Source: Marinifilum sp. D737
Lineage (GTDB): Bacteria; Bacteroidota; Bacteroidia; Bacteroidales; Marinifilaceae
NCBI RefSeq assembly: GCF_026672275.1
Contig: NZ_JANQCD010000018.1
Location: 1 to 64,000, forward strand
Direction of reading: 5' to 3'
DNA length: 64,000 nucleotides
The stretch's first letter is position 1. The number at the start of each line of letters is the position of its first letter. Position numbers and translations under genes: made by a program. The notes below the pieces were generated by a model, which saw only the letters and a list, made by a program, of their open reading frames with translations, was not told where the DNA came from and searched no databases. Shown piece by piece: positions 4,633-19,002 of the stretch.

Positions 4633-5336
4633 TCACCCTCCCCAACCATCGCGGTCCAGACTTCTATACTGAATGGCTTCAGCCAAATGGTCGCTTTCTA
4701 TGTTTTCCGATCCTGCCAAATCGGCTATGGTTCTCGAAACTTTCAGGATTCTGTCGTAGGCACGAGCCGAAAGACCCACTTTTTCCATGGCGGTTTTTAG
4801 CAGTTGGTTTCCAGCCTCGTCGGGCTGGCAATATTTACGCAATAATTTGGAGCTCATTTGAGCATTACAATGCATACCCTCCTCTTCTTTAAATCGTTCT
4901 TCCTGAATTTGTCGAGCTTGCTCAACCCTTGCTCTTATCACTTCACTTTTTTCCGATAATTGGGTATCCGATATCTTGTCGAAAGTTACCGGAACCACTT
5001 CGATATGAATGTCGATTCTGTCTAACAACGGACCACTAATTTTACTCAGGTATTTTTGTACCATTCCCGGAGCACACAAACAATCTTTCTCCGGATGATT
5101 GTAATATCCGCAAGGACAAGGATTCATGGAAGAAATCAGCATGGTACTTGCCGGGTAATCTACCGTGAATTTGGCTCGGGATATGGTAATGGTTCTGTCC
5201 TCTAAAGGTTGACGCATTACCTCCAAAACGGTTCGTTTGAACTCTGGCAACTCATCTAAAAATAATACCCCATTGTGCGAAAGAGAAATTTCGCCTGGTT
5301 GAGGATATGTTCCGCCGCCGACTAAAGCTACATCGG
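4633..5336 (-). pseudogene. comM: comM/yifB 3' fragment (split by the mobile element)
   Basis: This is the C-terminal part of a Mg-chelatase-like AAA+ ATPase of the YifB/ComM family, a helicase used in natural transformation elsewhere. It starts at the recombination junction with TDVALVGGGTYPQPG, then has Walker B (GVLFLDELPEF), a Cys cluster (CPCGYYNHPEKDCLC) and the C-terminal AAA lid. No start codon of its own is evident: a TAG stop lies a few codons into element DNA (plus strand about 5350). The matching N-terminal half with Walker A is at 18160-19002. Joining the halves recreates ISEV/ISDV-ALVGGG, as in intact homologues. It is non-functional while the element is present. Confidence 0.9.
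5329..5336. other. Left attachment core (element/comM junction)
   Basis: TACATCGG here and TACTTCGG at 18160-18167 are the only near-identical octamers at the two comM breakpoints (7 of 8 match). On one side lies comM coding sequence, on the other element DNA. A short crossover core is expected for a serine recombinase. Exact crossover bases cannot be fixed between the shared TAC and TCGG parts. Confidence 0.65.
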
Positions 5337-5380
5337 TAACCTTATGGAACTACGGGGGAATTCTCGAAAATTATTTTTAT

Positions 5381-5407
5381 TGAACCATAATGACTTGATA
5401 TGGTTCA
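5381..5407 (-). terminator. Inverted repeat at the left end of the element
   Basis: TGAACCATA (5381-5389) and TATGGTTCA (5399-5407) form a perfect 9-bp inverted repeat. On the minus strand it is followed by ATAAAAATAATTTT, so it may stop transcription toward the comM 3' fragment. Recombinase or regulator binding in the circular form is an alternative. Confidence 0.35.
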
Positions 5408-5659
5408 GTAGGCATTTTGCAACTCACTGTATTTCTTACAGTTACAACCCCTACCAATATATAGAACAAGTTAATTGACCTATTATGGGTTAAATAAAAG
5501 AGAAATTTTATCGCAAAATTTTTTCACCTGCAATCTGTACCCTAGATTTGCAATGTATCTCAGAGACTACACATTTATTTTTTAGAACAACCACAATTGC
5601 AATACTTTCCTAGGATATTGGTTGTCGTAACATTTATTTAATTTATTAAACACATTATC

Positions 5660-6106
5660 ATGGAAAAAAATGATACAAATACTGGTGTATTAAATAATCG
5701 CCAATTAGAACTAAAAGAAAGAATTCAAAATGCCATTGAAAAAGTGGGTGAAAGATTCTACTACGTACAAACAGGAAAAGCAATAGGGCTAAGCACTATG
5801 TTTCACTCCTTGAGAGATGAACTGATTAACTATCTCTTAGAAGCAAAAAACCTTGATGAGTTTAAAATCTCATATAGTATTGCACATGACTATCTTATTG
5901 TCAACGGGAATAGAGTTGATGGCTACATGATTTTTCAACGTGCTTTTGCTACAATTTTGCTCATGCACCAAGAAGGATATTTTTGGGATATATTTAAAAA
6001 GAGAGAAGGTTTTTTAAGTCCTGAAATTGAAACCTACATAACAGAGCAAATTAAGGGGCTTAATGAATTGATCATTGAAAGTTTGGATGAACCTATCCTA
6101 AAATAG
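5660..6106 (+). CDS. Element protein of unknown function (148 aa)
   Basis: I do not recognise this protein. It is mostly helical, with no signal peptide or membrane segment (motifs RIQNAIEKVGERFYY and IFQRAFATILLMHQEGYFW). It is the first plus-strand gene inside the left end, about 320 bp from the junction, so it would sit next to attP and divergent from the recombinase in the excised circle. That position suits a directionality factor or early regulator, but no HTH is visible, so this is only positional inference. A hairpin terminator follows at 6121, separating it from the replication genes. Confidence 0.6.
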   Translation: MEKNDTNTGVLNNRQLELKERIQNAIEKVGERFYYVQTGKAIGLSTMFHSLRDELINYLLEAKNLDEFKISYSIAHDYLIVNGNRVDGYMIFQRAFATILLMHQEGYFWDIFKKREGFLSPEIETYITEQIKGLNELIIESLDEPILK

Positions 6107-6120
6107 TTGTTAACACAAAT

Positions 6121-6151: not shown

Positions 6152-6184
6152 TCTGTACTCTCCTATAACACTCATATTTCCTGA

Positions 6185-6201: not shown

Positions 6202-6223
6202 TAACAACTTAAATTAAGAAATC

Positions 6224-6916
6224 ATGACACAGAGACATGGCAGAGAGCCTTGGAGAGACCAAGTGCCAGTAACAATAGAAGAAGCGTACAATCGCATTAA
6301 AAATAAATATATACAATTAGTGAAAAAATCTGGTGTTAAAGAACCAGATATACGAAAAGATCAAGAAGATGCACTTCAAGCCTTAGCTCGTTATGCCGTC
6401 AAAATGGATGTTAACCGCATAGAACTTTTTAAAGGGAGGAATAAAGGCATTTTCATCTTTGGTAATTTGGGAACAGGTAAGTCTACATTGTTAAGAGCAT
6501 TTATGGCGTGCATTAGTAGTAATGGTAAATGGCTACATGGTGAAGATGAACGGAGTACCAATACATTTTTACCTGCCGACAAAATGTTTGAGAGTATTTA
6601 TGGATCATCTAGTAGTAAGTTCAGATATAAGCACAGTAAAGAATGTGTTTTTATTGATGATGTAGGCACAGAACAAGCGATGGTAAGTCATTTTGGAAAC
6701 CCCAAATACCCATTTATAGAAATTGTCACTTCCATATATGAGAAGTTCAATGAGTCAAATTTTTTAGAACCTCAACAAACGCTGTTCTTAACTACAAACT
6801 TGTCACCTAAGAAGATTGAAGAAATCTATGGAGAACGAATCGCAGATCGTTTAAAAGAACTAGGATATCAAATAATAATTGGTGGAGATTCATTTAGAAA
6901 CTTTGGTAAGATATGA
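6224..6916 (+). CDS. DnaC/IstB-like AAA+ ATPase, putative helicase loader
   Basis: The 230-residue protein has Walker A GNLGTGKST near residue 84, Walker B CVFIDDVG near residue 144, a sensor-1-like TTNLSP and an arginine-finger-like GERIADRL. This order and size match DnaC-type loaders that phages and satellites use to bring the host DnaB helicase to their origin. It lacks the zinc and transposase-associated features that would favour an IstB partner role. Its last four bases overlap the next gene (ATGA), a replisome-organiser-like protein, which supports a replication role. The 17-bp box lies directly upstream. Confidence 0.75.
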   Translation: MTQRHGREPWRDQVPVTIEEAYNRIKNKYIQLVKKSGVKEPDIRKDQEDALQALARYAVKMDVNRIELFKGRNKGIFIFGNLGTGKSTLLRAFMACISSNGKWLHGEDERSTNTFLPADKMFESIYGSSSSKFRYKHSKECVFIDDVGTEQAMVSHFGNPKYPFIEIVTSIYEKFNESNFLEPQQTLFLTTNLSPKKIEEIYGERIADRLKELGYQIIIGGDSFRNFGKI

Positions 6917-7572
6917 AAGGATGGACATATATTTCAGATAAATTCTTTGCGGAATCAAAAGCTAGTTTACCTGCTAAACTTTTGTATTCAAAACTATTCT
7001 CACTAGCCAATGGTGCTAGTGAGATTTCTTACCCCAATTCATACTTCGCAAAGTTTATGGGTAAGAGTGAAAAGTCTATAAAGGACTACTTCAAGCAACT
7101 TGAGGAAATTGGCTACCTCTCGCGAAATATAAATGAGAAGGGGAAAACAGTACGTAAAATCACATTGTTGTTTAATATTGAAACAATGTCTTTTGAGAAA
7201 CCAGGAAACCCTAAGAAAGAGGATTCCTCTCAATATGCCGAAGTCATTAAATTATGGAACGGTATCGAGGATTTTAAGAATATTACATCGCTAACACTCC
7301 CACAAAAGGAGGCTCTCACAGAATTGTTCAATAACTACAGTATTAAAGATTTTGAAACTGTCGTTGATAATATAAACAAATCAGATTTTTTAAGAGGGCA
7401 TGTGAATGAAAACTGGCAAGCTTCTTTTGGTTGGGTGATAAAGCCTGAGAATTTTAAAAAGATTCTGAATGGAAAGTATAACCAACAGAAATCGGATAAA
7501 CACAGCCACCCACATAATCATGTGGTAAATGGTAAGAAGCAATTAAATAAAGACGATTATGAATGGCGGTAA
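6913..7572 (+). CDS. Replisome-organiser-like protein with N-terminal helix-turn-helix
   Basis: Residues about 15-80 form a winged-HTH-like region (LPAKLLYSKLFSLANG...SYFAKFMGKSEKSIKDYFKQL), as in phage replication initiators. The C-terminal part ends with the pattern FLRGHVNENWQASFGWVIKP plus NFKKILNGKY, typical of phage O/DnaT-like organisers. It would bind the origin and recruit the upstream loader, with which it overlaps by 4 bases. Four 17-bp iterons begin at its own stop codon, giving a likely initiator-origin pair. The 219-residue length is complete, and no primase or polymerase accompanies it, so host enzymes are presumably used. Confidence 0.7.
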   Translation: MKGWTYISDKFFAESKASLPAKLLYSKLFSLANGASEISYPNSYFAKFMGKSEKSIKDYFKQLEEIGYLSRNINEKGKTVRKITLLFNIETMSFEKPGNPKKEDSSQYAEVIKLWNGIEDFKNITSLTLPQKEALTELFNNYSIKDFETVVDNINKSDFLRGHVNENWQASFGWVIKPENFKKILNGKYNQQKSDKHSHPHNHVVNGKKQLNKDDYEWR

Positions 7573-7728
7573 CAAAACCGTACCTGAACCAAAACAGGGG
7601 TAACAATAACGTACCCCTAATTGGTTTTAGGGTAACAAAACCGTACCGTGTGCATAAAAACCACAAACGCTTATTTTACAAGGGTTTTAATGGATTAGAG
7701 CAGTATTTAGGGTAACAAAACCGTACCC
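7568..7728 (+). repeat. Iterons, candidate replication origin of the element
   Basis: Four direct copies of GGTAACAAAACCGTACC or a close variant lie at 7568-7584, 7599-7615 (AATAAC centre), 7631-7647 and 7711-7727. Each has GGTAAC and GTACC arms around a 6-base centre. The first overlaps the stop codon of the organiser gene, and an AT-rich stretch with two ATATATAGTAAGTA copies follows at 7731-7760. This is the usual layout of an iteron origin: initiator sites beside an AT-rich unwinding region. A related site lacking the centre lies inverted at 8518-8530. Confidence 0.65.
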
Positions 7729-7788: not shown

Positions 7789-8430
7789 TTATTTCAATTT
7801 TTCAATTAATCGTTCTTCAATTTTGAATATCAATTTAAATACAAAATCAAAATATGGTTTTGCATAAGCCTTTGCAAACTCCTCCATTTGTAATGCTTGG
7901 AATGTAGGAATGATTTTTTGATCTACGCTTACTTCCTCCAATCCCTCCTTAGGATTGGTAAAGCTTCCCATATACATTTTTGTATTATCAGGTATATCTT
8001 TTAATATTTCACTAGAGTCAGCATGTGAAAATCCATTTCGCAATAAATTTCTAACAGTTTTATCGAGAAGTTTTTTCTCCTCATCCATTATTAACCCTAG
8101 CTTCTTACAAACACCAATAGTTTGCCCTAAATTCATCCCTCCATATTTTTCATTTGGTCTTTTGTAAGTATCATTCCATTGCTCAATTGGTATAGGTTCA
8201 ATTCCAGCTTCATGGTTAATTAAAGCGAGTTTTAAGAGGCGTTCCAACAAATGATTTGTTAGGGTTATACTTGCTCTATTTAGTTCAAGAATCAAACATT
8301 TATTGATTTCAAAAATTAGAGTATTAAACTCACAGAATACCTTTAACTCAAACTCAAAGTATTTTCCTAAATCGGGATAATTCTTATTTAATTTTTCGAT
8401 GAAGGCTTTCTCAAATACAGCTTTTTCCAT
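7789..8430 (-). CDS. HEPN-motif protein, putative defence or interference cargo
   Basis: This 213-residue helical protein is of unknown family. It contains NLLRNGFSHAD: Arg131, four residues, His136. With Asn132 this matches the R-N-x3-H core of HEPN ribonucleases, preceded by helices such as TNHLLERLLKLALINHE. HEPN proteins often cleave RNA in abortive infection or toxin systems, and I infer a similar role. It heads the minus-strand cargo block, just past the iterons and convergent with the replication operon. No antitoxin-like nucleotidyltransferase is next to it. One short motif is the main evidence, so chance is possible. Confidence 0.45.
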   Translation of the reverse strand: MEKAVFEKAFIEKLNKNYPDLGKYFEFELKVFCEFNTLIFEINKCLILELNRASITLTNHLLERLLKLALINHEAGIEPIPIEQWNDTYKRPNEKYGGMNLGQTIGVCKKLGLIMDEEKKLLDKTVRNLLRNGFSHADSSEILKDIPDNTKMYMGSFTNPKEGLEEVSVDQKIIPTFQALQMEEFAKAYAKPYFDFVFKLIFKIEERLIEKLK

Positions 8431-8561: not shown

Positions 8562-9167
8562 TTAAATTATTGCATCCTTTCCTGGGTAATCATGATTTAC
8601 CCATTCGGGTCTCTTTTGTAGAATTTCATAAATGTTTATATCCTCATAGTTTTCAGCCTTACCTAACCCTAATAAATCCTTTGTGATTATATTATGATGA
8701 GGTGCAGCAATTTCATACAAAAAGAATTCCCCTCTATTCAAATCTGTTCTATTTTTTATTATTCCAGCCTGTTGTAATTTGTATACATCTACATCTTCAC
8801 AGGATAAATAGACCAATTCTTCCTGTTGCAGAAAAAACTCTCTTAGGATAGCTTTTTCATCGTGATTGAGATTTTCAAGTTTCTTTTCTCCTTGTCTTAT
8901 TTTCAAATAAAGCCAATAGCTATCAAAATAGAATTTTAAAAGCCTGAATAATAGTGAAAAAATGGATAGAAGAACAAAACTAATAGAAAACAAAAATGTA
9001 ACACCTATCCACTTTTTATATTCAAGTGCAAACTCATGTAAGCCTAGTAAGGTTTTAAAATCATGAGTTGAAAAAAGTATAATACCGGAAACAATACTTA
9101 AAAGAATATAAACCCTTACAGGAATCTTGTCCAAATCAATTAAGTCTGATATTTTAATATTCATCAT
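8562..9167 (-). CDS. SieB-like superinfection exclusion membrane protein
   Basis: The 201-residue protein has two hydrophobic segments (about 18-36 and 54-80), then a cytosolic region with LNHDEKAILREFF and VYKLQQAGIIKN, the layout of superinfection exclusion protein B relatives. Such proteins act at the inner membrane and block growth of competing phages. Here it would protect the host or the helper niche, which is inference. It follows the trypco2-like gene by 7 bp in the same direction, so the two are probably co-transcribed. Overall similarity is at pattern level, so a generic membrane protein is the fallback. Confidence 0.5.
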   Translation of the reverse strand: MMNIKISDLIDLDKIPVRVYILLSIVSGIILFSTHDFKTLLGLHEFALEYKKWIGVTFLFSISFVLLSIFSLLFRLLKFYFDSYWLYLKIRQGEKKLENLNHDEKAILREFFLQQEELVYLSCEDVDVYKLQQAGIIKNRTDLNRGEFFLYEIAAPHHNIITKDLLGLGKAENYEDINIYEILQKRPEWVNHDYPGKDAII

Positions 9168-9174: not shown

Positions 9175-9492
9175 TTAGTTGCCGAATGGGAATATTACAG
9201 GCACTTTAAAACAAATTGTACTTACGGAACTGTTGATCTCCTTTATATCGCCACCTGCTTTGAATAGGCTTGCTACATGAATTCCTGCACCAGCGTTAGA
9301 CTCATCAGTAGTTGTAACGGCTACTTTAAAATCTATTATATGCTTATTGTCATTAGATATATCGTCTCTCATATATGCCTTCCCAAAATTAGGGTTTATT
9401 ATTGCTCCATTTTCCTCGGTAGCTTTTTGAGCTTCTTTAATCCCATTAGTAATCTCAACCAATGTGTTTTTTACAAAATCTTTTAATTCCAT
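9175..9492 (-). CDS. Trypco2-like small protein
   Basis: The 105-residue protein begins MELKDFVKNTLVEITNGIKE, has AIINP, then IDFKVAVTT, and ends ICFKVPVIFP. This matches the small trypco2 (trypsin-co-occurring domain 2) family: an N-terminal helix followed by β-strands. In the family it is predicted to belong to conflict systems, often paired with protease or membrane effectors. No trypsin-like gene is nearby; its partners here are the SieB-like and the coiled-coil membrane proteins, with only short gaps on either side. Function in this element is unknown. Confidence 0.55.
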   Translation of the reverse strand: MELKDFVKNTLVEITNGIKEAQKATEENGAIINPNFGKAYMRDDISNDNKHIIDFKVAVTTTDESNAGAGIHVASLFKAGGDIKEINSSVSTICFKVPVIFPFGN

Positions 9493-9504: not shown

Positions 9505-10434
9505 TTAAGCTCCAAATGCATAATTTAAATCACCAGCATCGCCATTTAAAAGGATATCTCGAAGGTATCTACCTCTTTCAGTAAACTCATAGATTCTATC
9601 TGTCTCAAATTCTTCGGTAATCTTAACTAAATCTAACATCAAAAATTCATCCATAACAGTTGAATTTAAATCTACCTTTTGCTTTTTGAGGATATATACG
9701 GTAATACGGTCAAACTCTTCCATCAAAGGGGGATTCTTCCTTAAGTCTCTAATTTGCTTTTTCTCATCTTCTGATAAATTGTATTTTGATTTATTATCAT
9801 TAGAATCGATTACTTGTTTTTTTAGCCGATCTGCACCAAATGAAGATAGATTGCTTTTCTTCAAAATTTCATCTATTTCTGGCTCCAATTCCAGATTTAC
9901 TACCTCTGGTGTTTCTTTTCTTTTGTTAAATACCTTTTCAAGCTCAACTAATTCATTTTGTTTCTGTTGATACTTTGTCTCTAGGTCATCTATTTTATTT
10001 TGCAATTGTAATTTAGCTTCTAATTCCTCATCATATCTTTTTTGAAGACGTTTCGTAGCTGTAACCTGCTCATCATACTTCTCAATTTTAACAACTCTCT
10101 TGGGAGCTATTCGGCTAGTCACCTCAGGTTGTATAATTTCCTCTGATGTCAATACAATAACCCTAGCTAGATTTATTAATAAATAAGAGATTACCATTAC
10201 ACATAATGCTATTAGTGTACAAACGAATAGATTCCAGACAAACGTCCAACCATCAAGATATGTAGCCATATATTCTAGCTTATCTTTTAGTTTGGTTGAC
10301 TTCTCAAAATTAAATAAGGTGTAGACGAATTTGTAATTATGGATAATCCATACTCCGATAAGAGTTCCAAAGAAAGGATTAGTAGTTTTTGTTTTAATGT
10401 TATCTTTAAAAGAGACAAGGAAGTCTTTAATCAT
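9505..10434 (-). CDS. Membrane-anchored coiled-coil protein
   Basis: The N-terminus MIKDFLVSFKDNIKTKTTNP leads into two membrane segments (about 20-41 and 62-96). A long charged coiled coil follows (about 105-170, RLQKRYDEELEAKLQLQNKI), and then a C-terminal globular part with a winged-helix-like end (VDLNSTVMDEFLMLDLVKITEEF). I do not know a precise family. It resembles membrane effectors or sensors found in accessory islands. Its stop lies 12 bp from the next gene start, so it probably leads the cargo operon. The 45-residue membrane ORF lies directly upstream. Confidence 0.55.
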   Translation of the reverse strand: MIKDFLVSFKDNIKTKTTNPFFGTLIGVWIIHNYKFVYTLFNFEKSTKLKDKLEYMATYLDGWTFVWNLFVCTLIALCVMVISYLLINLARVIVLTSEEIIQPEVTSRIAPKRVVKIEKYDEQVTATKRLQKRYDEELEAKLQLQNKIDDLETKYQQKQNELVELEKVFNKRKETPEVVNLELEPEIDEILKKSNLSSFGADRLKKQVIDSNDNKSKYNLSEDEKKQIRDLRKNPPLMEEFDRITVYILKKQKVDLNSTVMDEFLMLDLVKITEEFETDRIYEFTERGRYLRDILLNGDAGDLNYAFGA

Positions 10435-10493
10435 AGTTAGTGTATTGTTCTATTTCGCAATATCAAATATAACAATAATTGCACCTATTAACA

Positions 10494-10631
10494 TTATAAC
10501 ATACCAATAAAAAAATAGCAAAGCAGTACTACAACAATTAAACCAATCGACACCCCAATGGTTTCTACCTTATCCGTTTCGTCAAGTGTAGGGTAAAATA
10601 ATTTTAATAGATCAATCCAAAGTTTCCACAT
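10494..10631 (-). CDS. Small single-pass membrane protein (45 aa)
   Basis: This short ORF reads ATG to TAA on the minus strand. The product starts MWKLWIDLLKLFYP, has an acidic stretch (LDETDKVE), and ends with a 20-residue hydrophobic helix (ISIG-like start, VVVLLCYFF). It lies 59 bp upstream of the coiled-coil membrane protein in the same direction. It may be a regulator or toxin of the cargo operon. I recognise no family; amphipathic N-terminus plus one helix is the only support beyond position. Confidence 0.4.
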   Translation of the reverse strand: MWKLWIDLLKLFYPTLDETDKVETIGVSIGLIVVVLLCYFFIGML

Positions 10632-10707
10632 GGCAACAAGTATAAGTATGAAGATCCTTAGTATTTAGACACTAATCAAATTGTATATCATCATTATAAA
10701 TAGAAGT

Positions 10708-10731
10708 ATTTACAACCGTATGATTGTAAAT
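10708..10731. promoter_or_regulatory. Palindromic operator candidate
   Basis: ATTTACAA (10708-10715) and TTGTAAAT (10724-10731) are perfect 8-bp inverted arms with an 8-base centre. The right arm overlaps the TTG of the plus-strand promoter at 10724. It lies between the two microprotein ORFs. Confidence 0.35.
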
Positions 10732-10754
10732 TATATTTCAATGTAATATATTTG
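10724..10754 (+). promoter_or_regulatory. Consensus Bacteroidota promoter antisense to the 34-aa ORF
   Basis: TTG (10724-10726), 20 bases, then TATATTTG (10747-10754) fits the TTG-N19-21-TAnnTTTG consensus. Transcription would start near 10760 and run through the antisense of the 34-residue ORF to the hairpin at 10940-10979. No plus-strand gene lies downstream at close range. Confidence 0.4.
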
Positions 10755-10760
10755 TATTAG

Positions 10761-10792
10761 AATAAGAAAAGGGAGCACCATCACGAACTCCC
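10761..10792 (-). terminator. Terminator of the 34-aa membrane ORF
   Basis: On the minus strand GGGAG (10792-10788) pairs with CTCCC (10775-10771) around a 12-base loop, followed by TTTTCTTATT. It begins 12 bases after the stop codon of the 34-residue ORF. Confidence 0.55.
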
Positions 10793-10804
10793 TAATCAAC
10801 AGAT

Positions 10805-10909
10805 CTAAACAACTAGCCAAACTACCGCAATTATGGTGGCAAGTACCAGTACTAAGCCCAATAATTCAGGAAGTTTTGAGTTGTTGAATTCAAAACTAAG
10901 TTTTACCAT
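10805..10909 (-). CDS. Hydrophobic microprotein (34 aa), type I toxin-like
   Basis: ATG to TAG on the minus strand gives 34 residues: polar MVKLSFEFNNSKLPE, then one long hydrophobic helix (LLGLVLVLATIIAVVWLVV). It has its own terminator (10761-10792). A consensus promoter on the opposite strand (10724-10754) would make an RNA complementary to the whole message, ending at a hairpin near 10979. Small single-helix protein plus overlapping antisense RNA is the layout of type I toxin-antitoxin pairs. No family is recognised, and expression is unproven. Confidence 0.4.
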   Translation of the reverse strand: MVKLSFEFNNSKLPELLGLVLVLATIIAVVWLVV

Positions 10910-10939
10910 AATAGTAAAATTTTAATAATTACACAATAC

Positions 10940-10985
10940 AAAGGTCGGCTCAATTGTTTTCCAGACAGGTGCCGCCTTTGTTTTA
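10940..10985 (+). terminator. Hairpin ending the putative antisense RNA
   Basis: AAAGGTCGGC (10940-10949) pairs with GCCGCCTTT (10971-10979) with one bulge and a 21-base loop, followed by GTTTTATC. The long loop lowers confidence. Confidence 0.4.
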
Positions 10986-11429
10986 TCAGTATAAAGATAA
11001 CTCTTTTAAAATATAGAAAGTGGATTTTTTCAGTAAACGCCACCAAAGTTATCCACACATTCCTGTTAATTGCTTAACTATCAAGATCTCCACATTTAAC
11101 ATTCTGCAAAAAGTTTTCCAAACAGGAAACTCTTACTGTATTTTTCTTCTAATAAAATAATTCGAATTAAACAAAAATATTCATCACTATTTTTGCATAT
11201 TTAGCGTAAAAGTTCTATAAAAATTAAATTCCCATTATGGGTTGGGGGGTATAGTTTACTTTGTGGATGCACACTCTCATACCAGCAGCCCTTCATCAAA
11301 ACTTTTTCTCCCGACAGTTCGAATCATGGGGGCGGTGAACCAATAAATAGGAAAATAGCTTTACCACAGCCCCCTTTAACGCTTTGTATTGTAAATACTC
11401 TCAAGCTCTTTAACTAGGAAAATATGATT
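10986..11429. other. Non-coding stretch with no assignable feature
   Basis: I see no ORF of credible length on either strand. A G-rich part near 11236-11250 and a GTTCGAATC at about 11317 recall tRNA pieces, but no cloverleaf can be drawn. It probably separates the minus-strand cargo from the structural operon. Confidence 0.4.
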
Positions 11430-11446
11430 TAGTTCAATATAGGTAT
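11430..11446 (+). promoter_or_regulatory. 17-bp box, copy 2 (structural operon leader)
   Basis: Exact second copy of TAGTTCAATATAGGTAT (first at 6185-6201). It lies about 350 bp upstream of the first structural gene, with three hairpins in between. Its repetition ahead of both element operons suggests one activator or repressor controls both. Confidence 0.5.
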
Positions 11447-11506
11447 AAGGACACCTTCTCCTAAAGAGTAAAGAGTTCTTAACATGATTATATTTTGCAA
11501 TTAGTT

Positions 11507-11542
11507 TAGGGTAGGTTTCCACATTACCTACCCTACTCTTTT
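11507..11542 (+). terminator. Leader hairpin 1
   Basis: TAGGGTAGG (11507-11515) and CCTACCCTA (11527-11535) form a perfect 9-bp stem with an 11-base loop, followed by CTCTTTT. It is the first of three such structures before the structural genes. Confidence 0.6.
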
Positions 11543-11639
11543 AAATTGAAGTTCATTTTTAATTATATAGTAATCACGTATCTCGATTACCAAGGTTATA
11601 CAAGGACTTAATCTAAGTTGTTGTTGCCGTTATTTTATG

Positions 11640-11668
11640 AATTGGGGGCTTAACCGCCCTCAATTTTT
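11640..11668 (+). terminator. Leader hairpin 2
   Basis: AATTGGGGGC (11640-11649) pairs with GCCCTCAATT (11656-11665) over 10 bp with one wobble and a 6-base loop, then TTT. Confidence 0.6.
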
Positions 11669-11726
11669 ACTTTGAACTATACGATTTTCATTTACATAAA
11701 TCTTCAAGAAAATCTGTTTTAAACAA

Positions 11727-11763
11727 TGCAGTAGCCTTAATGGGGTTACTGCATTACTTTTTT
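11727..11763 (+). terminator. Leader hairpin 3
   Basis: TGCAGTAGCC (11727-11736) pairs with GGTTACTGCA (11744-11753) over 10 bp with one wobble, followed by TTACTTTTTT. It ends only 35 bases before the first structural gene. Confidence 0.6.
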
Positions 11764-11797
11764 GTAAAAACTGTTAAAAACACAAATAAACAACCAT

Positions 11798-12022
11798 ATG
11801 GATAGAATAAACACAAACCTAGATTGCCGTGACAACACGGAAAGGGAAATAATGAATTTTGCTAGGGCTGCATTAAACCTAGACGACGACGAGTTGTGTC
11901 AATTGAACATTGAAATACCTCGCTACTTAAAAGACAAACTGAAGGCTTACGCCTCCATTTCAAATAGAAGTTTAAAAGGACTTGTGATAGAAATACTCAG
12001 CAAGCAATTAGTAACAATTTAA
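11798..12022 (+). CDS. Ribbon-helix-helix (Arc/CopG-like) regulator
   Basis: The 74-residue protein ends in a ribbon-helix-helix fold: strand QLNIEIPRYL, helix DKLKAYASISNRS, helix LKGLVIEILSKQL. The N-terminal 30 residues are acidic (EREIMNFARAALNLDDDE). Proteins of this fold bind DNA as dimers and often repress their own operon; it may act on the 17-bp box or leader, which is inference. It is the first gene of the structural operon, 20 bp upstream of the capsid-like gene. An antitoxin role is possible, but no toxin is paired with it. Confidence 0.7.
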   Translation: MDRINTNLDCRDNTEREIMNFARAALNLDDDELCQLNIEIPRYLKDKLKAYASISNRSLKGLVIEILSKQLVTI

Positions 12023-12042
12023 ATAATTCAAATTCTACAAGA

Positions 12043-13143
12043 ATGAACTTTACAAAAACAATCAATCAAGTTAGACAGGCTGCCGACGGCAAAGATGATA
12101 TGCAACCTGTAAAAGTAGAAAGAGCTTTAGAAGATATTAAAGGCTCTGAAAAATCAATTTTTAAAGCCTATACCAATGCTTTAACTTTCTACAAAATGGG
12201 AGTTAATGTTATTGATGATTCTGACCGAGCAGGATATATTATTACTGCATATTCAGATTTCATCAAAGCGGCTTTGGTTGATGAATGGGATTTAAAAATA
12301 ACTGCCGATTTTAAATGGGAAAGTGATGGCAAACTAACGGTATTTGGTCGAACAAAAATGCCTGAAAAGACCTATACTAATGATGATGAATACACCATTG
12401 AAACTATCGAAACTACCATTAAATTCTCTGATGATACTACGATTGTAGCTACATCAAATGAGTTTGGTGAGTATTCAGCTACATCAGCTGCTCCCCAATC
12501 TGTAGGTATCGTAACTGTAACAGATTCCGTTGGCGGAGTTGGTAACCTAAACACTTCCGATGTAACCATACAAAACATCAATGGCGATAAGCTAAAAGGA
12601 AGAAGATTCACGGCTTCGGTTACTTTCTCAACGGAGTTACTTAAAAGCCAGAACAAAGATGCCGAAATCCAATCAGCAATTCAGTTAGCAATTGATAAAG
12701 AAATTACAAAGTACATTATTCAAAAGGCTTTGGCTAAATCACAATCAGTTGCTGACCAAACTTTAGGCGTAGCAGGTTTATGCAATATTGAAGAACCTGT
12801 AAAAACTAGTGGTATTTATATTACCGACCCTACCACTTTTAAAGCTGGTAAACAAATTGGTGTAAATAACGGGTATTTATTCACAGGCGGAAAATCAAGC
12901 GCAAAGGCTTTTGATGGTCAATTGCTCTTTACCCCTGCCATTGAAGATTTACCTGATAACTTCGGGCAAAAGGTAATGTTTGGTGACCCAAGTCAAATTA
13001 CCGTGGCTTTGTACGGTACTTACATTGGTGTTGACCGATACACTTACCAAAAGAAAGGCAAAATTGTTTTGACAATAGATTCTTATGCTGAGGTTGACCT
13101 AACTTCAGATAAGGCTTGGTCTGTAGCTAATATTACAGGCTAG
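12043..13143 (+). CDS. HK97-fold major capsid-like protein (first capsid gene)
   Basis: The 366-residue protein has the layout of an HK97-type coat protein. Features are an N-terminal helical arm, a central segment FSTELLKSQNKDAEIQSAIQ followed by DKEITKYIIQKAL (spine-helix region), and a C-terminal domain GDPSQITVALYGTYIGVDRY, ending TIDSYAEVDLTSDKAWSVANI, as in many phage coat proteins. It has no protease of its own; one is fused to the second capsid domain downstream. It is followed by a strong hairpin at 13168, so it is likely the most expressed gene of the operon. Assignment rests on fold-level patterns, without alignment. Confidence 0.65.
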   Translation: MNFTKTINQVRQAADGKDDMQPVKVERALEDIKGSEKSIFKAYTNALTFYKMGVNVIDDSDRAGYIITAYSDFIKAALVDEWDLKITADFKWESDGKLTVFGRTKMPEKTYTNDDEYTIETIETTIKFSDDTTIVATSNEFGEYSATSAAPQSVGIVTVTDSVGGVGNLNTSDVTIQNINGDKLKGRRFTASVTFSTELLKSQNKDAEIQSAIQLAIDKEITKYIIQKALAKSQSVADQTLGVAGLCNIEEPVKTSGIYITDPTTFKAGKQIGVNNGYLFTGGKSSAKAFDGQLLFTPAIEDLPDNFGQKVMFGDPSQITVALYGTYIGVDRYTYQKKGKIVLTIDSYAEVDLTSDKAWSVANITG

Positions 13144-13167
13144 GTTATTTTCAAGTTCGTCCTTACG

Positions 13168-13197
13168 ACTGCTCCCATATTTTGGGGGCAGTTTTTT
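13168..13197 (+). terminator. Terminator after the first capsid gene
   Basis: ACTGCTCCC (13168-13176) and GGGGGCAGT (13184-13192) form a 9-bp stem with one wobble and a 7-base loop, followed by six T. It sits inside the structural operon, so downstream genes would depend on read-through or a separate promoter. Confidence 0.8.
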
Positions 13198-13218
13198 AGA
13201 ACTAAACTCAGAACAACG

Positions 13219-13401
13219 ATGAAAGTAAAAGCTAAAAAATTAACCCCTGACAAGGTTCGGGAGGTTAGAGATTTCCTCGAAGTAAATAAATATTTATCAA
13301 CAGAAGAGAAGTGGACATACCGACAAATAGCAGATTATTTCGAGGTAACAATTAATCAGGTACAAGGAATTGCCTTAGGTAATTACTCCTTAATTATTTA
13401 A
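13219..13401 (+). CDS. Small helix-turn-helix protein (60 aa)
   Basis: This basic 60-residue protein has LTPDKVREVRDFL followed by TYRQIADYFEVTINQVQGIA, a clear helix-turn-helix of the type seen at the N-terminus of phage regulators and some small-terminase or HNH proteins. It could be a regulator of the late genes or a DNA-recognition protein for packaging. The second option would matter because no terminase is otherwise visible. It begins 22 bp after the terminator at 13168-13197. Confidence 0.55.
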   Translation: MKVKAKKLTPDKVREVRDFLEVNKYLSTEEKWTYRQIADYFEVTINQVQGIALGNYSLII

Positions 13402-13421
13402 CTCCAAATACACAGTATAAC

Positions 13422-13751
13422 ATGGCAAAATATAAAACTTATATACTAGCACTATGCGTGTGGTGTTTCGCACGTATTTGTCTCCCTAAGCAACAATGGA
13501 AGCAATTCAAACACAACTTACTTCCACAACTATTTAAAATGACCAATGAAGTAGCAATTTGTACTGAGGATTTATACTTGGTCACTCGCTGTAGTTGGGA
13601 TGATTTCTGCAATTTTTACCGTGATGATTCAAGAATAGAAGCAAGAGAGTTTCTTCATCTCTTTAATAGTTTTCATGGAAAAGAGGGCGATGATGCCTGG
13701 ACAGATATTATTCAAGCCAATGAGAATAGTAAGACTAGAACGAACCGATGA
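13422..13751 (+). CDS. Element protein of unknown function (109 aa)
   Basis: I do not recognise this 109-residue protein. It starts with a short hydrophobic, Cys-containing segment (YILALCVWCFARICLP), followed by a polar region with aromatic residues (CSWDDFCNFYRDD) and a charged tail. The N-terminus could be a membrane or packing helix. It follows the HTH gene by 20 bp, and its end overlaps the next gene by about 32 bp, consistent with a translationally coupled virion operon. A minor head component is possible but unsupported. Confidence 0.5.
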   Translation: MAKYKTYILALCVWCFARICLPKQQWKQFKHNLLPQLFKMTNEVAICTEDLYLVTRCSWDDFCNFYRDDSRIEAREFLHLFNSFHGKEGDDAWTDIIQANENSKTRTNR

Positions 13752-14094
13752 TTATAGTGAAACAATTCATCTAACGCCAAACACTAAGCACTATTTAGAC
13801 TTTTCCATATCGGAAACATATCCATTAGATAATCCACATTGGGAATTAAAAGTAAGAGCAGAACTATATCTGCGGCAAGATGGTTACCCCATTCCAATAA
13901 AGTGTAAACATAGATACGCAGAACCCCCACCACCGCCTGACTCATTTTATTATACCCATGAACGTGTGAGCTTAACCTTAGAACCCGAATTAGTAGATAA
14001 AATAATAGCAACCAATGGTAATGCTGAACTCAAAATTATTGGCAGAAGTCAAGGGGTTCAGAAACATATATATTTTAAAAGAGATCAAAAATGA
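13720..14094 (+). CDS. β-rich element protein of unknown function, possible head accessory
   Basis: The protein is about 124 residues from the Met at 13720 (MRIVRLERTDDYSETI). The frame is open to a Met at 13675, but that would overlap the upstream gene by 77 bp, so the shorter form is preferred. It looks like a β-sandwich (HYLDFSISETY, HWELKVRAELYL, AELKIIGRS) with a polyproline turn (EPPPPPDSF). Its stop overlaps the start of the protease-capsid fusion by 4 bases (ATGA). Position and fold suggest a decoration, stopper or scaffold-like head protein. No family is recognised. Confidence 0.5.
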   Translation: MRIVRLERTDDYSETIHLTPNTKHYLDFSISETYPLDNPHWELKVRAELYLRQDGYPIPIKCKHRYAEPPPPPDSFYYTHERVSLTLEPELVDKIIATNGNAELKIIGRSQGVQKHIYFKRDQK

Positions 14095-15689
14095 TTACTA
14101 ATAAAGAAACAAGAAATTTTAATCAAGAAATATCATACCGCCAAGCCGAATCAGGCGAACATTTCATAGAAGGATATGGAGCGGTATTTAACCAAAGAAG
14201 CCGTATAATCGTAGAAAACGGAAAGAAGTTTTATGAGGTAATTCGCCCATATGCTTTTGATAAAATTCTAGCAACAAACCCTAATGTTATAGCGTGTGTT
14301 GACCACGATAAAAATAAAATGTTAGGGCGTACTCGTAGTGGTACATTAGCCTTGGTTAAAGATGGCAAGGGCTTAAAGTACATGATTAATATCCCAAATA
14401 CAGCTTTAGGGAATGACATTGTTGAACAAATCAAACGAGGAGATTATTTTGAATCTTCTTTTGCATTTGGAACTTTTAAAGCTGACGTAAAATGGGGACG
14501 TGCTGAGGATGGTATTGCTATTCGCTATGTTGAGAATATCTCAGCTTTAATGGACGTATCCATTGTAAGAAATGGCGCTTACGCTAATACGGATATTGCC
14601 CTAAGACAATTAGCAGAATTTGAAGGCTCAAAAACTACTACAAGCAACCGTGACGAAAGAATGGTTGATTTAATTGCTACCAATCCTAAACCGACCGAAG
14701 AAATCGAACTTCCAAACTACAATATTTGTAAGGCTATTCGTGAACTTGGTTTTGGTGGTAGAGATAGTTTGACTGGTACTGAACTTGCCACCCAACAGGA
14801 AGCCTTGAAACTTGGGCTTAGAACAACAGGTTTATTAATTCCTCCAAGCGTTATTAATTATCGTGAGGGCATTAATTCAACTACCGGATTAAAACTAATT
14901 CATGAAAATACGGCTTCGGACTTGGATATTATCGTACCTCGCCCAATTTATAAGCAATTAGGTTGTCGTATTATGGACAACCTTAGGGGTAAGTTAGGTT
15001 TGTTACACAAGGAACACACTAAAGCGGTTTGGTATGAGAATGAAGAAGAACCAATTATTACAAATGACCATTTAGTTGATAAACCATTAAAAGCGATTAC
15101 CGAACCTACAAGAATTGGGATAACCGACATATTCCCAAAAGAGCTATTAATGAATATCAATCCTGAGGTTTTTAATTCAATTATTAGTGACATGGTGGCA
15201 GGTATTGATACTACCATAACCAAAACTGTTTTGGACACAATTAAACAACACCCAGACATTTTAAATTATAATAGTGGTAATACGCCCCAAGCATTAACGG
15301 GAATGTTGTTAACAATGTTGGAAGCACAAATTGAGCCTAATGGTATATTTGTAATGAATCGTGATGTATTTGCCAAAGGGAAAGTGACCAATAACGGTAC
15401 AAGAACTCAGCAAATATTAACAGGTCATTTTTCAAGAGGTAAAACCTTTGATGATTACCCAGCTATTGGAACTTCTCTAATGGGTGGAACCAAAACAGAT
15501 TCAAGCTTAATCTATGGTGACTTTTACCGTGCCATTGTTGGTTTGTGGAGAGGAGTTGAAATCCTCATCGACCCATATACTTATCAAAGACACGGATTGG
15601 TTGAAATTACCGTTAACCGCCTTTGTGATATAGTAATTCGTAACCCAAAGGCATTTGTGAAATGTACCAAAATTGATTCTACTCTGTAA
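14091..15689 (+). CDS. Prohead protease-major capsid protein fusion
   Basis: The 532-residue protein joins two phage functions. Residues about 10-190 match S78/U35 prohead proteases: EGYGAVFN, EVIRPYAFDKIL, CVDHDKNKMLGR with candidate catalytic His72, and GDYFESSFAFG with candidate Ser122 or Ser123, then LMDVSIVRNGAYANT. Residues about 215-532 match an HK97-fold coat protein, ending SLIYGDFYRAIVGLWRGVEI and ITVNRLCDIVIRNPKAF. The usual gene for a separate protease is absent. The protease would mature capsids by cutting itself and capsid delta regions. Together with the gene at 12043 the element has two coat domains. It is 4-bp coupled to the upstream gene and followed by a terminator. Confidence 0.8.
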   Translation: MITNKETRNFNQEISYRQAESGEHFIEGYGAVFNQRSRIIVENGKKFYEVIRPYAFDKILATNPNVIACVDHDKNKMLGRTRSGTLALVKDGKGLKYMINIPNTALGNDIVEQIKRGDYFESSFAFGTFKADVKWGRAEDGIAIRYVENISALMDVSIVRNGAYANTDIALRQLAEFEGSKTTTSNRDERMVDLIATNPKPTEEIELPNYNICKAIRELGFGGRDSLTGTELATQQEALKLGLRTTGLLIPPSVINYREGINSTTGLKLIHENTASDLDIIVPRPIYKQLGCRIMDNLRGKLGLLHKEHTKAVWYENEEEPIITNDHLVDKPLKAITEPTRIGITDIFPKELLMNINPEVFNSIISDMVAGIDTTITKTVLDTIKQHPDILNYNSGNTPQALTGMLLTMLEAQIEPNGIFVMNRDVFAKGKVTNNGTRTQQILTGHFSRGKTFDDYPAIGTSLMGGTKTDSSLIYGDFYRAIVGLWRGVEILIDPYTYQRHGLVEITVNRLCDIVIRNPKAFVKCTKIDSTL

Positions 15690-15692
15690 TAA

Positions 15693-15721
15693 AAAAGGGG
15701 CGTAAAAGCCCCTTATTTTTT
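15693..15721. terminator. Bidirectional terminator of the structural operon
   Basis: AAGGGGC (15695-15701) and GCCCCTT (15708-15714) with loop GTAAAA are flanked by A and T runs on both sides. It serves both the protease-capsid gene (plus) and the convergent 137-aa gene (minus). Confidence 0.85.
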
Positions 15722-15736
15722 CTGATACTCTTGAAA

Positions 15737-16150
15737 TTACTTCTTCTCAATTTTTACTAGCCTATCAGCCCTTAAATCCCCATAAAATTTGTGCCTAATA
15801 TTTGTAGATTTCCCAATAGCATATTGATGACCATTTGGTGAAATGAATAAATTCTTGATTACGCAAGCCCCATACTTCGGGTGCTTAAATTCATCACCAA
15901 TTTTAAAACCGTTATAGGTCTCTTTAATTCTGATACGCTTTTTAGTGTCATTACCTACGTAGGATGGAGCAACGGTAGTTACTTTTTGTTTTTCCTGTTT
16001 GGTTTCAGCCGTAGCGTTGTCCTGCTTGTCCTTAGTAGTTTTACTTGTAGGTTTGGTAGGGGTTGTTTGTTTTACTGTCTCCTTGGACTGCTTTTCTGTT
16101 TCGTTTACTACTTTCCCCATTTCGATAACTTTGTTTGTACGTTTATTCAT
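15737..16150 (-). CDS. Lys/Thr-rich element protein with C-terminal SH3-like domain
   Basis: The 137-residue protein has a disordered N-terminal half rich in Lys, Thr, Gln and Glu (ETVKQTTPTKPTSKTTKDKQ). A compact C-terminal β-domain follows (YNGFKIGDEFKHPKYGACVI, then NGHQYAIGKSTNIRHKF), reminiscent of SH3-like or KOW-type barrels that bind nucleic acid or peptides. It is transcribed toward the structural operon and lies upstream of nothing else, with 229 bp separating it from the recombinase. Function is unknown; a DNA-binding accessory or head-completion role is possible. Confidence 0.5.
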   Translation of the reverse strand: MNKRTNKVIEMGKVVNETEKQSKETVKQTTPTKPTSKTTKDKQDNATAETKQEKQKVTTVAPSYVGNDTKKRIRIKETYNGFKIGDEFKHPKYGACVIKNLFISPNGHQYAIGKSTNIRHKFYGDLRADRLVKIEKK

Positions 16151-16379
16151 GATACTAGCGATTTATGTTTGATTAACTATACCGCTAAATACGTTCAAAC
16201 GTGCAAGACCACAAAGGAATAGACAATCATTTCTCCTTGACAGTCAACCCCATTACTCCCACCTCATCAGTAAATAAAAATGAAATGGGTGTAAAAAATT
16301 TCTTCCTACTCCCATCTTCTGATTTATATGATTTTAGTTGTTACTCTTGAACACTTAAAGTCCAAAATACTGGACATAT

Positions 16380-18116
16380 TTACTTTGCCCCTTTACCGTT
16401 AGGCTTTTCAATGTTCTGCATTTCCTTCTTAACAATCTTAATTTCCTGAGTAAGTTCCTTTTCTTCAAAATTTGGATTTATATAATCTTTACATCCTCCC
16501 CAAGTAGAAATAAAATAATCATACTTTTTTCCATTTATTAATTCGATGGTAACTTTTGTAGGATACCCCTTTCCTTCAAAGGCTGGCAAAGAAGAAAAAT
16601 CAGTATTGGGATTATCAATGTATACTCTATTGACTGCACTCTTAATTTGAACTTTTAAAATAGATGCAATGCTGCTGTAATGGTTTAGGCTAGAATAGTC
16701 TTCAACTCCATCAGTTAAAATCACATGCTCTTCTCCTTTCTCATCCTTTTCAAATCGGTATGAATTTTTAATATTTTCTATTTGGGTTTCAATTGAAACT
16801 TTCTCATTTGTCCAATAGTCAACTTTATTAACGGCAGCAACCATCTGATTACTTAACTTTCTTTGAAATTGATCCAAATTATTTACTGATATTTTACCCT
16901 TAGTTGCTAACCATTCCAATCTGTCTAAATCTTCATCTAATTCTTCAATTCTATCCGTAGCTTTCTCAAATTCTAGAGATGCCTTTTCAAACTTAATTTC
17001 TAACTTTTTCAAAAATCCTTCACCCATGTTAACAGGTCCAATTTCATTCATAGCATGATACATCAGGCTATTAAGATTATCTATGTCTACATTCCTTGTC
17101 TCACATGCCTTCCCCGATGAGATTTTCTGTTTAGATCTCCCCAAACAAATATAGGCGTTACTTCTTCCTGGGTTTCGATGTAAAAATAAAGCCTTTCCAC
17201 ACTTTGAACATTTTACTATTCCTTGCAGAATATTAACATTTTTACTAGAATTATCTTTCCTGTTTGTATTTTCGATAATCTTCTTCTGAACCCTTTCCCA
17301 CCGCTCTTTTGAAATATACGGAATGCAATCAGAAGGTAGTGGTAATAACTCACCTTTAATACTCTTGTCAATTCCTATTCTCTTACCATCCTTATCTTTC
17401 AAATGCACAAAATGTCGATACCTTCTTTCACCATAGTAGATTGGATTTTTCAGTATATGCAAAACACTCGTTCCTACCCATTTATTTTTTATTCTCTTTT
17501 TTGGATCTAATTTGTTTAAGACATCAGCAATTAATTCAACTCCCATATCTGTGTCAAGATACAATTGGAATATTTTTAAAACCAACTCTCCCTCTTGGTC
17601 ATTTCTTTCTAATCTTTTATCCACATTCTTAAAACCAAAAGGTGGTTTAGCCTTTGTACCCCCTTCACGTATATGTCTATCAAGTCCTGATTTACTTCTC
17701 TCAACTATGGTCTCTCTTTCAATTTGGGCAAAACCAGAAAGAACACTTAAAATGATCATGGTTACAGGTTTTAAATCACCATTTTCATCCAATGAATTTA
17801 AGTCATCCTTATTTATATAAATATTGATTCCTTTTTCAGCAAATTGATTGACGGTCTTGATAACATCAGCCATTTTTCGACCGAGTCTACTAAGCTCCCA
17901 AATTAATACGTGCTTTATATCATTCTTCCCTATAAATTCTGTCATTTCATTAAATCCCGCACGATCTTCACCTTTTACCTTACCACTAATTTTATCTTCA
18001 AACTCCTGTAACACCCTGTATCCTTTATAATTTGCATATTTCTTTAATGCTACAATCTGGTGGGCTGAATCTTGTTCTAACGTACTTACTCGTGTATATA
18101 TAACGGCATTTTCCAT
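16380..18116 (-). CDS. Large serine recombinase (integrase of the element)
   Basis: The 578-residue protein has the three-part layout of large serine integrases. The N-terminal resolvase domain has VIYTRVSTLEQ with catalytic Ser11, and IWELSRLGRKMAD. A recombinase domain follows around residues 165-280 (PFGFK, WVGTSVLHILKNPIYYGERR). Next come a zinc ribbon (CSKCGKALFLHR ... CLGRSKQ ... KACETR) and a long coiled coil around 370-460. It would catalyse integration between short attP and attB sites and, with a partner, excision. It starts 44 bp from the right junction and only 19 bp after the stop of truncated comM, on the same strand. Confidence 0.92.
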   Translation of the reverse strand: MENAVIYTRVSTLEQDSAHQIVALKKYANYKGYRVLQEFEDKISGKVKGEDRAGFNEMTEFIGKNDIKHVLIWELSRLGRKMADVIKTVNQFAEKGINIYINKDDLNSLDENGDLKPVTMIILSVLSGFAQIERETIVERSKSGLDRHIREGGTKAKPPFGFKNVDKRLERNDQEGELVLKIFQLYLDTDMGVELIADVLNKLDPKKRIKNKWVGTSVLHILKNPIYYGERRYRHFVHLKDKDGKRIGIDKSIKGELLPLPSDCIPYISKERWERVQKKIIENTNRKDNSSKNVNILQGIVKCSKCGKALFLHRNPGRSNAYICLGRSKQKISSGKACETRNVDIDNLNSLMYHAMNEIGPVNMGEGFLKKLEIKFEKASLEFEKATDRIEELDEDLDRLEWLATKGKISVNNLDQFQRKLSNQMVAAVNKVDYWTNEKVSIETQIENIKNSYRFEKDEKGEEHVILTDGVEDYSSLNHYSSIASILKVQIKSAVNRVYIDNPNTDFSSLPAFEGKGYPTKVTIELINGKKYDYFISTWGGCKDYINPNFEEKELTQEIKIVKKEMQNIEKPNGKGAK

Positions 18117-18135
18117 AGTAAAGAATATTTAATTA

Positions 18136-19002
18136 TTATGCCCCTAAGTTAGTATAAATTACTTCGGAAATTGTATGATGTGGAGAACGAAAGGGACGCT
18201 GCGTCATTAATGAACTGTCCTTCTCCAAAGTTCCTGCTACGGAATGTATCTTGGTTGTTTCCAAAGCTTCCTGCAAACTAAGCGGTGGCAGAATGCCTGG
18301 AATTCGTTTGGCCAACATGGTTTTTCCTGCTCCCGGCGGGCCAATCATGATGATGTTGTGACCTCCGGCTGCAGCAATCTCCAATGCTCTTTTCACATTT
18401 TCCTGGCCTTTTACATCGGCAAAATCATGAGGAAATTTATTCAGATGAGCATAAAACTCTGCTCTTGTATCGACCTTGGTGGGTTGAATTTCTGTATCTC
18501 CTTTCAAAAATCCAATTACCTCACTGATGTTATCGGCCCCATATATTTTTAACTTGTTCACAACGGCTGCTTCACGCGCATTTGCTTTGGGAAGAATCAA
18601 ACCTTCGAATCCTTCCTCCCTGGCTTGAATTGCCATAGGCAGCACTCCCTTTATGGGCACTAAACTGCCATCAAGCGACAATTCGCCCATAATCACAAAC
18701 TTCTCCGGTTTTTCGCAAGAGATTTGTTCCGTTGCAGTTAAAATTCCAATGGCAAGCGGTAAATCGTAAGCCGATCCTTCTTTTCGAATATCAGCAGGAG
18801 CCATATTAATAATGATCTTTTTCCCTGGAATTTTGTAACCTACTTCGCGCAAAGCAGAATCGATTCGTTGCTGACTTTCCTTCACAGCATTATCGGGCAA
18901 TCCAACAAGGGAAAAGCGTACGCCAGGAAAAACATTTACTTCAATGGTAATTGTAGTGGCATGAATGCCGTATACGGCACTTCCATAAGTCTTAACAAGC
19001 AT
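18136..19002 (-). pseudogene. comM: comM/yifB 5' fragment (split by the mobile element)
   Basis: This is the N-terminal half of a YifB/ComM-type Mg-chelatase-like ATPase. It begins [20 protein letters not shown], has the ChlI-like domain ([15 protein letters not shown]) and Walker [17 protein letters not shown], and reaches SPHHTISEV at the junction. Seven element-encoded residues (IYTNLGA) then lead to a stop. Walker B is on the other fragment at 4633-5336, so the ATPase cannot work while the element is integrated. The intact protein would be about 510 residues. The host promoter remains on this side and points into the recombinase gene. Confidence 0.92.
18160..18167. other. Right attachment core (comM/element junction)
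   Basis: TACTTCGG marks the breakpoint of comM on the recombinase side and matches TACATCGG at 5329-5336 in 7 of 8 bases. Homology to ComM ends exactly here. Confidence 0.65.

Follow-up and report, generated by a model that had tools for sequence, protein, structure and literature searches.

The 64,000-nucleotide stretch of Marinifilum sp. D737 DNA analyzed here (contig NZ_JANQCD010000018.1, positions 1 to 64,000; hereafter the window) contains an inserted element that encodes proteins of a phage shell, and the question it raises is what a mobile element does with such proteins when no gene for filling or finishing a particle accompanies them. The element occupies window positions 5329-18167 (~12.8 kb) and lies in comM with clean boundaries on both sides. 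A first-pass annotation had described a complete 12.8-kb element with its own recombinase, helicase loader, replication initiator, iterons and two HK97-fold capsid genes, and the attachment (att) ends, profile matches and repeat search reported below bear this out. To this we add a prohead protease fused to one of the capsid domains, which the annotation lacked. Shell genes without DNA-loading or tail genes suggest a parasite that corrupts or borrows virus particles to spread. The reading that we favor, and that we hold to be evenly balanced between right and wrong, is that of a helper-dependent phage satellite whose capsid homologs remodel or poison the shell of a helper phage, rather than that of a capsid-forming phage-inducible chromosomal island (cf-PICI). 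Its model is Ccm of SaPIbov5, described as a satellite capsid homolog that reshapes the helper's shell while the portal comes from the helper (PMC8569155, PMC5052747).

comM is split in the window's own genome (G000), its N-terminal part being open over only 292 codons. In a search of the family genomes, comM was matched in 55 of 56, G000 included; the best-matching frame spans 494-611 codons in 51 of the 54 other matching genomes, the exceptions being G041 (317 codons), G011 (201 codons) and G050 (two contigs). Both junctions align with the intact comM sites of two genomes of the same genus (G001 and G002), and a 7-of-8 core TAC(A/T)TCGG, counted by hand, is present at both ends, as expected for a large serine recombinase. 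The half-site adjoining the C-terminal part of comM has the core TACATCGG (5329..5336) and the one adjoining the N-terminal part has the core TACTTCGG (18160..18167), both at hand-counted positions. A large serine recombinase for integration and excision is encoded at 16380..18116 on the minus strand (Pfam Resolvase 5.5e-33, Recombinase 4.3e-15; phrog_95 integrase 1e-75). The element thus has the make-up of a phage satellite, with an integrase and replication genes bounded by att sites and no full virion module. Within the family, comM is hit repeatedly: by our ORF reading, the insertions of G041 (L030) and G011 (L032) carry TniA/TniB-type transposon genes, one of them adjoining metal-efflux-like genes, and they were rejected as sister elements on that account. 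The element proteins had no match at E<=0.1 in loci L028-L034, and no sister element was seen in comM among the family genomes. Megablast of the whole element against phages and plasmids gave no close relative, and the DnaC-like protein, the recombinase or the 13675 protein as query retrieved nothing from viral contigs.

The first-pass annotation had reported no terminase, portal or tail genes, and this held. All 16 listed ORFs of the element, which stand at the positions it had given, were scanned against Pfam and PHROGs, and neither these scans nor further HMM and protein searches revealed a terminase, portal, connector or tail gene by any match that we accept. Three weak matches were set aside: that of the 137-aa protein at 15737..16150 (minus strand) to a tail chaperone, which spans only a lysine- and threonine-rich stretch of its biased N-terminal part (E 0.0046; a weak CarD-like match, E 0.075, lies in the C-terminal part); that of the DnaC P-loop to a small-terminase family (0.07); and that of the 9505 protein to a tail-spike family (0.25). 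We also ran 14 HMMs on 15 element proteins, with E-values computed for 15 sequences. Twelve were seeded on a phage locus of a Prolixibacteraceae metagenome-assembled genome (MAG), L035, and represent TerS, TerL, portal, protease, capsid, connector, head completion and five tail or neck families; the other two are additional TerS seeds, and the three TerS HMMs, which hold 1, 1 and 2 sequences, are weak tests. Only the protease (170 bits) and capsid (146 and 48 bits) HMMs scored, all others staying at or below 5.2 bits. The same 14 HMMs found nothing further in the whole window and the rest of its contig (L022, L023), and the L035 TerL, portal, connector, head-completion and tape-measure proteins had no match in the window at E<=1. 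As a control, 11 loci outside model building (L061-L071, of which L061 and L062 look like one phage) yielded both TerL and portal in eight, portal only in L066 (a 3.6-kb contig), and capsid only in L070 (a 3.2-kb contig) and L071. A portal or large terminase concealed in the small genes, as the first-pass annotation had proposed to check, was rejected, these products (60-139 aa) being too short and matching no HMM, the 13422 and 13675 proteins included. The terminase, portal and tail genes of an autonomous tailed prophage were therefore not found.

The gene at 14091..15689 (plus strand) encodes an S78 prohead protease (PF04586, 1.7e-35) fused to an HK97 major capsid domain (Phage_capsid PF05065, 6.3e-12). 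Its protease half looks intact: besides the profile match, H72 and S123, which we take to be the catalytic residues of S78 prohead proteases, are invariant in all 11 aligned proteases, the window's included. A second, divergent HK97-fold capsid homolog of 366 aa is encoded at 12043..13143 (plus strand). This protein has no convincing match in Pfam, PHROGs or NCBIfam, and we assign it from three results taken together: 26-27% identity to the 14091 protein, 47.9 bits against a home-made phage-capsid HMM whose ORFs all came from loci other than the window, and an hhalign match (97.7%, E 1.6e-12) to a nine-row capsid profile in which 14091 is one row. In a tree, it falls outside the group formed by 14091 and its phage relatives (support 96/88); its branch is long (2.74 changes per column), so that its placement is tentative and it need not be a recent duplicate.

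Matches to 14091 occur in 5 other genomes among 194 relatives and in 7 others among 395 genomes of the class. As a single query it returned nothing from the genome or viral contigs, and alignments as query found its closest relatives, L035 (from the genome scan) and L036 and L047 (IMG/VR), at 45-49% for the protease and 32-33% for the capsid. All three are ordinary tailed-phage modules with a full set of head genes: L035 and L047 carry TerL and portal, and L036 has portal, connector and tail genes, with no TerL seen on its incomplete 9.1-kb contig. In these three loci, protease and capsid are separate genes and the capsid has an N-terminal stretch, whereas in the element's 14091 gene they are fused and no such stretch is seen. 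The 14091 protein also matches 534 phage and 110 plasmid records; one match, to a 28-kb Bacteroides finegoldii record that carries TerL and portal, covers more than 80% of the protein, and four records were inspected among the remainder. The 12043 protein as single query found nothing in phages, plasmids or viral contigs. We thus looked for the two outcomes that would have spoken against the first-pass description, a hidden terminase, portal or tail gene and homologs marking the element as one decayed end of a prophage, and found neither, the homologs being tailed-phage modules that share head genes only. Two side observations concern other loci. A same-lineage capsid remnant (L015, G387:C1, near 1095 kb) seems by our reading to have lost its 5' part beside insertion sequences, in a genome that holds a second, fuller prophage (L069). 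In L063 and L065 (IMG/VR), the frames of terminase, portal and further head genes are interrupted, and all 13 breaks checked are TAG, which suggests that TAG codes for an amino acid in these phages.

HK97-type phages are described as having their scaffold within the capsid protein itself, as an N-terminal delta domain (PMC8569155). The residues that precede the N-arm column number 67-132 in all 19 unfused rows other than those of elements (82-109 in L035, L036 and L047), lengths that depend on the alignment and may be overstated in 10 rows, whose start was taken to be the first ATG in frame. These 19 rows include L061 and L062, which are apparently identical, and L070, a 3.2-kb contig of unclear context; they omit L015, L044 and L065, in which the capsid gene is truncated, runs off the fetched stretch or is broken by TAG. 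By the same measure, the capsids of two further elements presented below, G119 and G406, have 3 and 8 residues, and this is not a matter of start-codon choice since their frames open 3 and 7 codons before the start, respectively. Among fusions, the distance from the protease match to the N-arm is 35 residues in the window, 33 and 33 in two cf-PICI-like records, and 78 and 102 in phages L016 and L068. Judged by position, the stretch in the relatives is probably the delta domain, and the 35-residue gap of 14091 would leave no room for one, the protease apparently occupying its place. The corresponding length for 12043 (64) rests on an uncertain alignment and was discarded. The delta domain is reportedly essential for HK97 assembly, which argues against these delta-less proteins building shells alone.

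The two further elements belong to genomes of the same order, G119 (L018, G119:C12) and G406 (L071, G406:C4, 155001-175000). Both have an integrase, an excisionase-like gene, an initiator and a capsid gene lacking the N-terminal stretch. They surfaced among genomes selected for a capsid match (the G119 capsid is matched in 10 of 393 order genomes, G000 included), a selection that gives no measure of how frequent such elements are. The G119 element, 12.6 kb long, is delimited by att repeats that extend over at least 36 nt and differ at three positions; one copy stands at contig 29774-29809 and the other, within a tRNA-Arg gene, at 42339-42374. It carries two integrases, the initiator, a tail chaperone, a tape measure, an unfused protease and the capsid; no other head or tail HMM scores in 55 kb, and neither TerL nor portal was found there. 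Within this element (29774-42374 of the contig), tail chaperone and tape measure precede protease and capsid, the reverse of the prophage order seen here, and the element might influence the length of tails in addition to the size of heads. In G406, an integrase after mnmE (our ORF reading) is accompanied by the initiator, a 686-aa tail protein and the capsid; the capsid HMM alone scores in 55 kb, with no protease, TerL or portal found, and no att repeat was found at its ends. The same locus encodes a 547-aa protein whose N-terminal half resembles pentapeptide repeats by our reading. The two elements have tyrosine integrases (that of G406 by our reading) whereas the window element has a large serine recombinase, and beyond the head genes they share no gene with it at E<=0.1. 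In the tree, taking supported branches only and omitting L062 as an apparent duplicate of L061, 14091 groups with L035, L036 and L047 (99/94) and the G119 capsid with L066, L061 and L067 (96/94); the window and G119 capsids thus appear to derive from different phage lineages, pointing to independent capture. G119 or G406 could itself be a remnant. The search for syntenic elements proposed by the first-pass annotation therefore came back empty at comM within the family and yielded two similar elements at other sites.

We favor the helper-dependent satellite because of the clean att ends, the lack of any packaging or tail match, the tailed-phage relatives of the capsid, the missing stretch and the independent capture; the dependence on a helper's portal, terminase and tail that the first-pass annotation had foreseen is the best reading of the locus. 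The SieB-like gene fits a phage-excluding element. In the proposed course of events, the element would excise when an HK97-type tailed phage of a related kind is induced or infects, and would replicate from its iterons. It would then make capsid subunits without a delta domain. Built into the shell that the helper is assembling, for instance at its pentamers like SaPIbov5 Ccm, these could make the head a small one, and the fused protease may come along with them, perhaps as delta domains do. Terminase, portal and tail of the helper would load and finish particles holding the ~13-kb element, and helper yield would drop. By analogy, the loss of delta in these elements may be the extreme of a trend linking delta length to capsid size. 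A broader proposal, which we regard as plausible and somewhat short of an even chance, is that convergent satellites in Bacteroidota have repeatedly captured a phage capsid gene and dropped its delta domain, without portal or terminase, and that here a protease replaced the scaffold and a second capsid paralog was added, giving composite undersized heads in the helper's assembly line. What looks new is the fused protease, the pairing of capsid genes and the occurrence in Bacteroidota.

Several results weigh against this satellite reading. No helper was found in the strain, where the first-pass annotation had suggested looking for a helper prophage: in a search covering two terminase families and one portal family, the genome has no match to PF03354, PF03237 or PF04860, and PF05065 matches only in the element. 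Since the L035 TerL and portal match PF03354 and PF04860, both models are able to see this phage lineage. PF05065 is a poor witness because the L035 capsid falls below its cut-off and the L036 capsid is missed, so that a related capsid could be overlooked; a protein search with the 14091 capsid also found no helper capsid in the strain. No packaging site was identified in the element, and the capsid region has about as many promoter-like sites as expected by chance (25 against 23.8). The recombinase is matched at E<=1e-60 in one of 393 order genomes, G000 itself, leaving no sister copy. The AlphaFold2 model of 12043 is uninformative (pLDDT 30). Ccm keeps a delta domain and none is seen in 14091, and two capsid genes could mean that the element makes a shell of its own.

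Such an own shell is what a reduced cf-PICI-like satellite would build, forming a small capsid from the two capsid genes and the fused protease and taking portal, terminase and tail from a helper. The shell protein and the protease are both present, the diverged second capsid could supply pentamers or vertices, and the same fused delta-less layout (33 residues) occurs in two Lacticaseibacillus records together with portal and TerL. However, another phage's portal would have to nucleate a foreign shell, no scaffold candidate was recognized, and cf-PICIs are described as bringing their own portal and terminase (PMC10690885, PMC13230959); we consider this explanation rather unlikely. The choice between a cf-PICI and nothing, which framed the first-pass annotation, proved too narrow, as Ccm is a published capsid homolog that remodels the helper's shell (PMC8569155, PMC5052747), and the capsid of the element need not form a shell of its own.

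It is unlikely that the locus is a decayed prophage or mosaic remnant in which head genes were kept by chance beside recombinase and replication genes. Remnants do exist, for example the capsid gene of G387 (L015), which is 5'-truncated and adjoins what we read as insertion sequences, and the missing helper and the lack of a copy elsewhere would suit decay; yet the att sites are clean, the ORFs open and the protease residues H72 and S123 conserved, no trace of an L035-like TerL or portal appears at E<=1, terminator-like hairpins flank the capsid block, and a similar gene set lacking the N-terminal stretch recurs in two other elements. A defense island, in which the capsid homologs act as decoys that poison the assembly of superinfecting phages and form no particle of their own, would account for the SieB-like neighbor and recalls Ccm, which alone lowers helper titer 10^3-10^4-fold (PMC5052747). 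We judge it improbable, as the 10 of the 16 proteins that were scanned gave no PADLOC match at E<=0.1, and the presence of recombinase, initiator, loader and iterons suggests a mobile replicon, for which packaging would be a gain. Very improbable, finally, is a phage-derived, encapsulin-like nanocompartment unrelated to DNA transfer: it would explain an HK97 fold without packaging genes, but the prohead protease is kept and fused, the location is a replicating mobile element, and no cargo-enzyme-like product was recognized among the scanned neighbors of the capsid genes, several of which have no family.

The remaining genes fit a small replicon with an accessory block. On the plus strand, a 148-aa protein without convincing family in Pfam, PHROGs or NCBIfam (5660..6106) is followed by a DnaC-like helicase loader (6224..6916; phrog_50 5.9e-20) and a replication initiator of the HTH_36, O/DnaD-like kind (6913..7572; phrog_19658 6.1e-23, PF13730 3.6e-8). 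A repeat search located four iterons with the consensus GGTAACAAAACCGTACC at 7567..7728 (plus strand), the likely origin, against a mean of 0.0 matches in 20 mononucleotide shuffles. The accessory block, on the minus strand, encodes a 213-aa protein (7789..8430), the SieB-like superinfection exclusion protein (8562..9167; PF14163 4.6e-25), proteins of 105 aa (9175..9492) and 309 aa (9505..10434), and a 45-aa ORF without family whose C-terminal part is hydrophobic by our reading (10494..10631); the 213-, 105- and 309-aa proteins have no convincing family. The ~1.1 kb at window 10640-11790, just before the capsid block, has terminator-like hairpins and no convincing gene and is a candidate packaging or control site. 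Of the 11 terminator-like hairpins counted in 10400-16400, where shuffled sequence gave 3.8 on average, one lies 5' of the capsid block (11725..11755, plus strand) and one, found on both strands, lies 3' of it (15695..15714). Between these, besides the two capsid genes, the plus strand encodes a small ribbon-helix-helix-like regulator (11798..12022; phrog_582 Arc-like, a weak match at 6e-4), a 60-aa protein with weak HTH matches only (13219..13401), a 109-aa protein without terminase, portal or connector match (13422..13751) and a 139-aa protein examined by profile searches and AlphaFold2 (13675..14094), strand-rich in a low-confidence model (pLDDT 55) that gave no Foldseek match at E<=0.001. 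An Rfam scan found nothing reaching the gathering score.

If the satellite reading is true, capsid piracy by capsid homologs is no staphylococcal oddity and recurs in another phylum, and its common, simple change is the loss of a scaffold domain thought to influence head size. A capsid gene without the delta stretch and with no portal or terminase beside it would be a sequence signature for satellites that have gone unnoticed, and such elements offer a way to test whether delta-domain length sets capsid size.

Among known systems, the 'Charybdis elements' were considered as an equivalent and rejected, since they carry no HK97 capsid in the account given of them (PMC12324425). A literature search, mostly of open-access papers and at the level of titles, abstracts and passages, found no capsid-bearing satellite in Bacteroidota; the first-pass statement that this phylum has no described equivalent stands to that extent, and is weakened by the precedent of Ccm elsewhere. 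Two Lacticaseibacillus records of 13.8 and 14.5 kb, L025 (pCF11) and L026 (R23.1), which by gene content we take to be cf-PICIs, resemble the element in size and in their fused protease-capsid with 33-35 residues from protease to N-arm, and differ from it in carrying TerL, portal and connector, none of which was found here. Of the cf-PICI hallmarks, the element thus has its own capsid and head protease and lacks its own large terminase and portal. The PICIs PmCI172 and EcCICFT073 are reported to carry capsid-like genes whose effect on the helper is left open (PMC6893505), and by description they compare with the element as satellites with a capsid homolog.

The closest parallel is with SaPIbov5 and the cos-type SaPIs with Ccm, set beside the element by description and not by sequence. 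As described (PMC8569155, PMC5052747), Ccm is 24% identical to the helper capsid protein, occupies the pentamers of small isometric heads, forms no shells alone and blocks the helper, being the main cause of the 10^6-10^7-fold fall in helper titer brought about by the island. It is an unfused protein of 355 aa with an 87-residue delta domain, 44 residues shorter than that of the helper, and capsid size has been proposed to go with the length of this domain (PMC5052747). The element shares with these islands an HK97-fold capsid homolog in a satellite, the lack of a portal and large terminase, and a delta region shorter than that of the phages. Ccm is single and unfused, and the passages that describe SaPIbov5 identify no protease; the Marinifilum element, in contrast, belongs to another phylum, lies in comM and has a large serine recombinase, and carries two capsid genes and a protease fused at the place expected for the delta domain.

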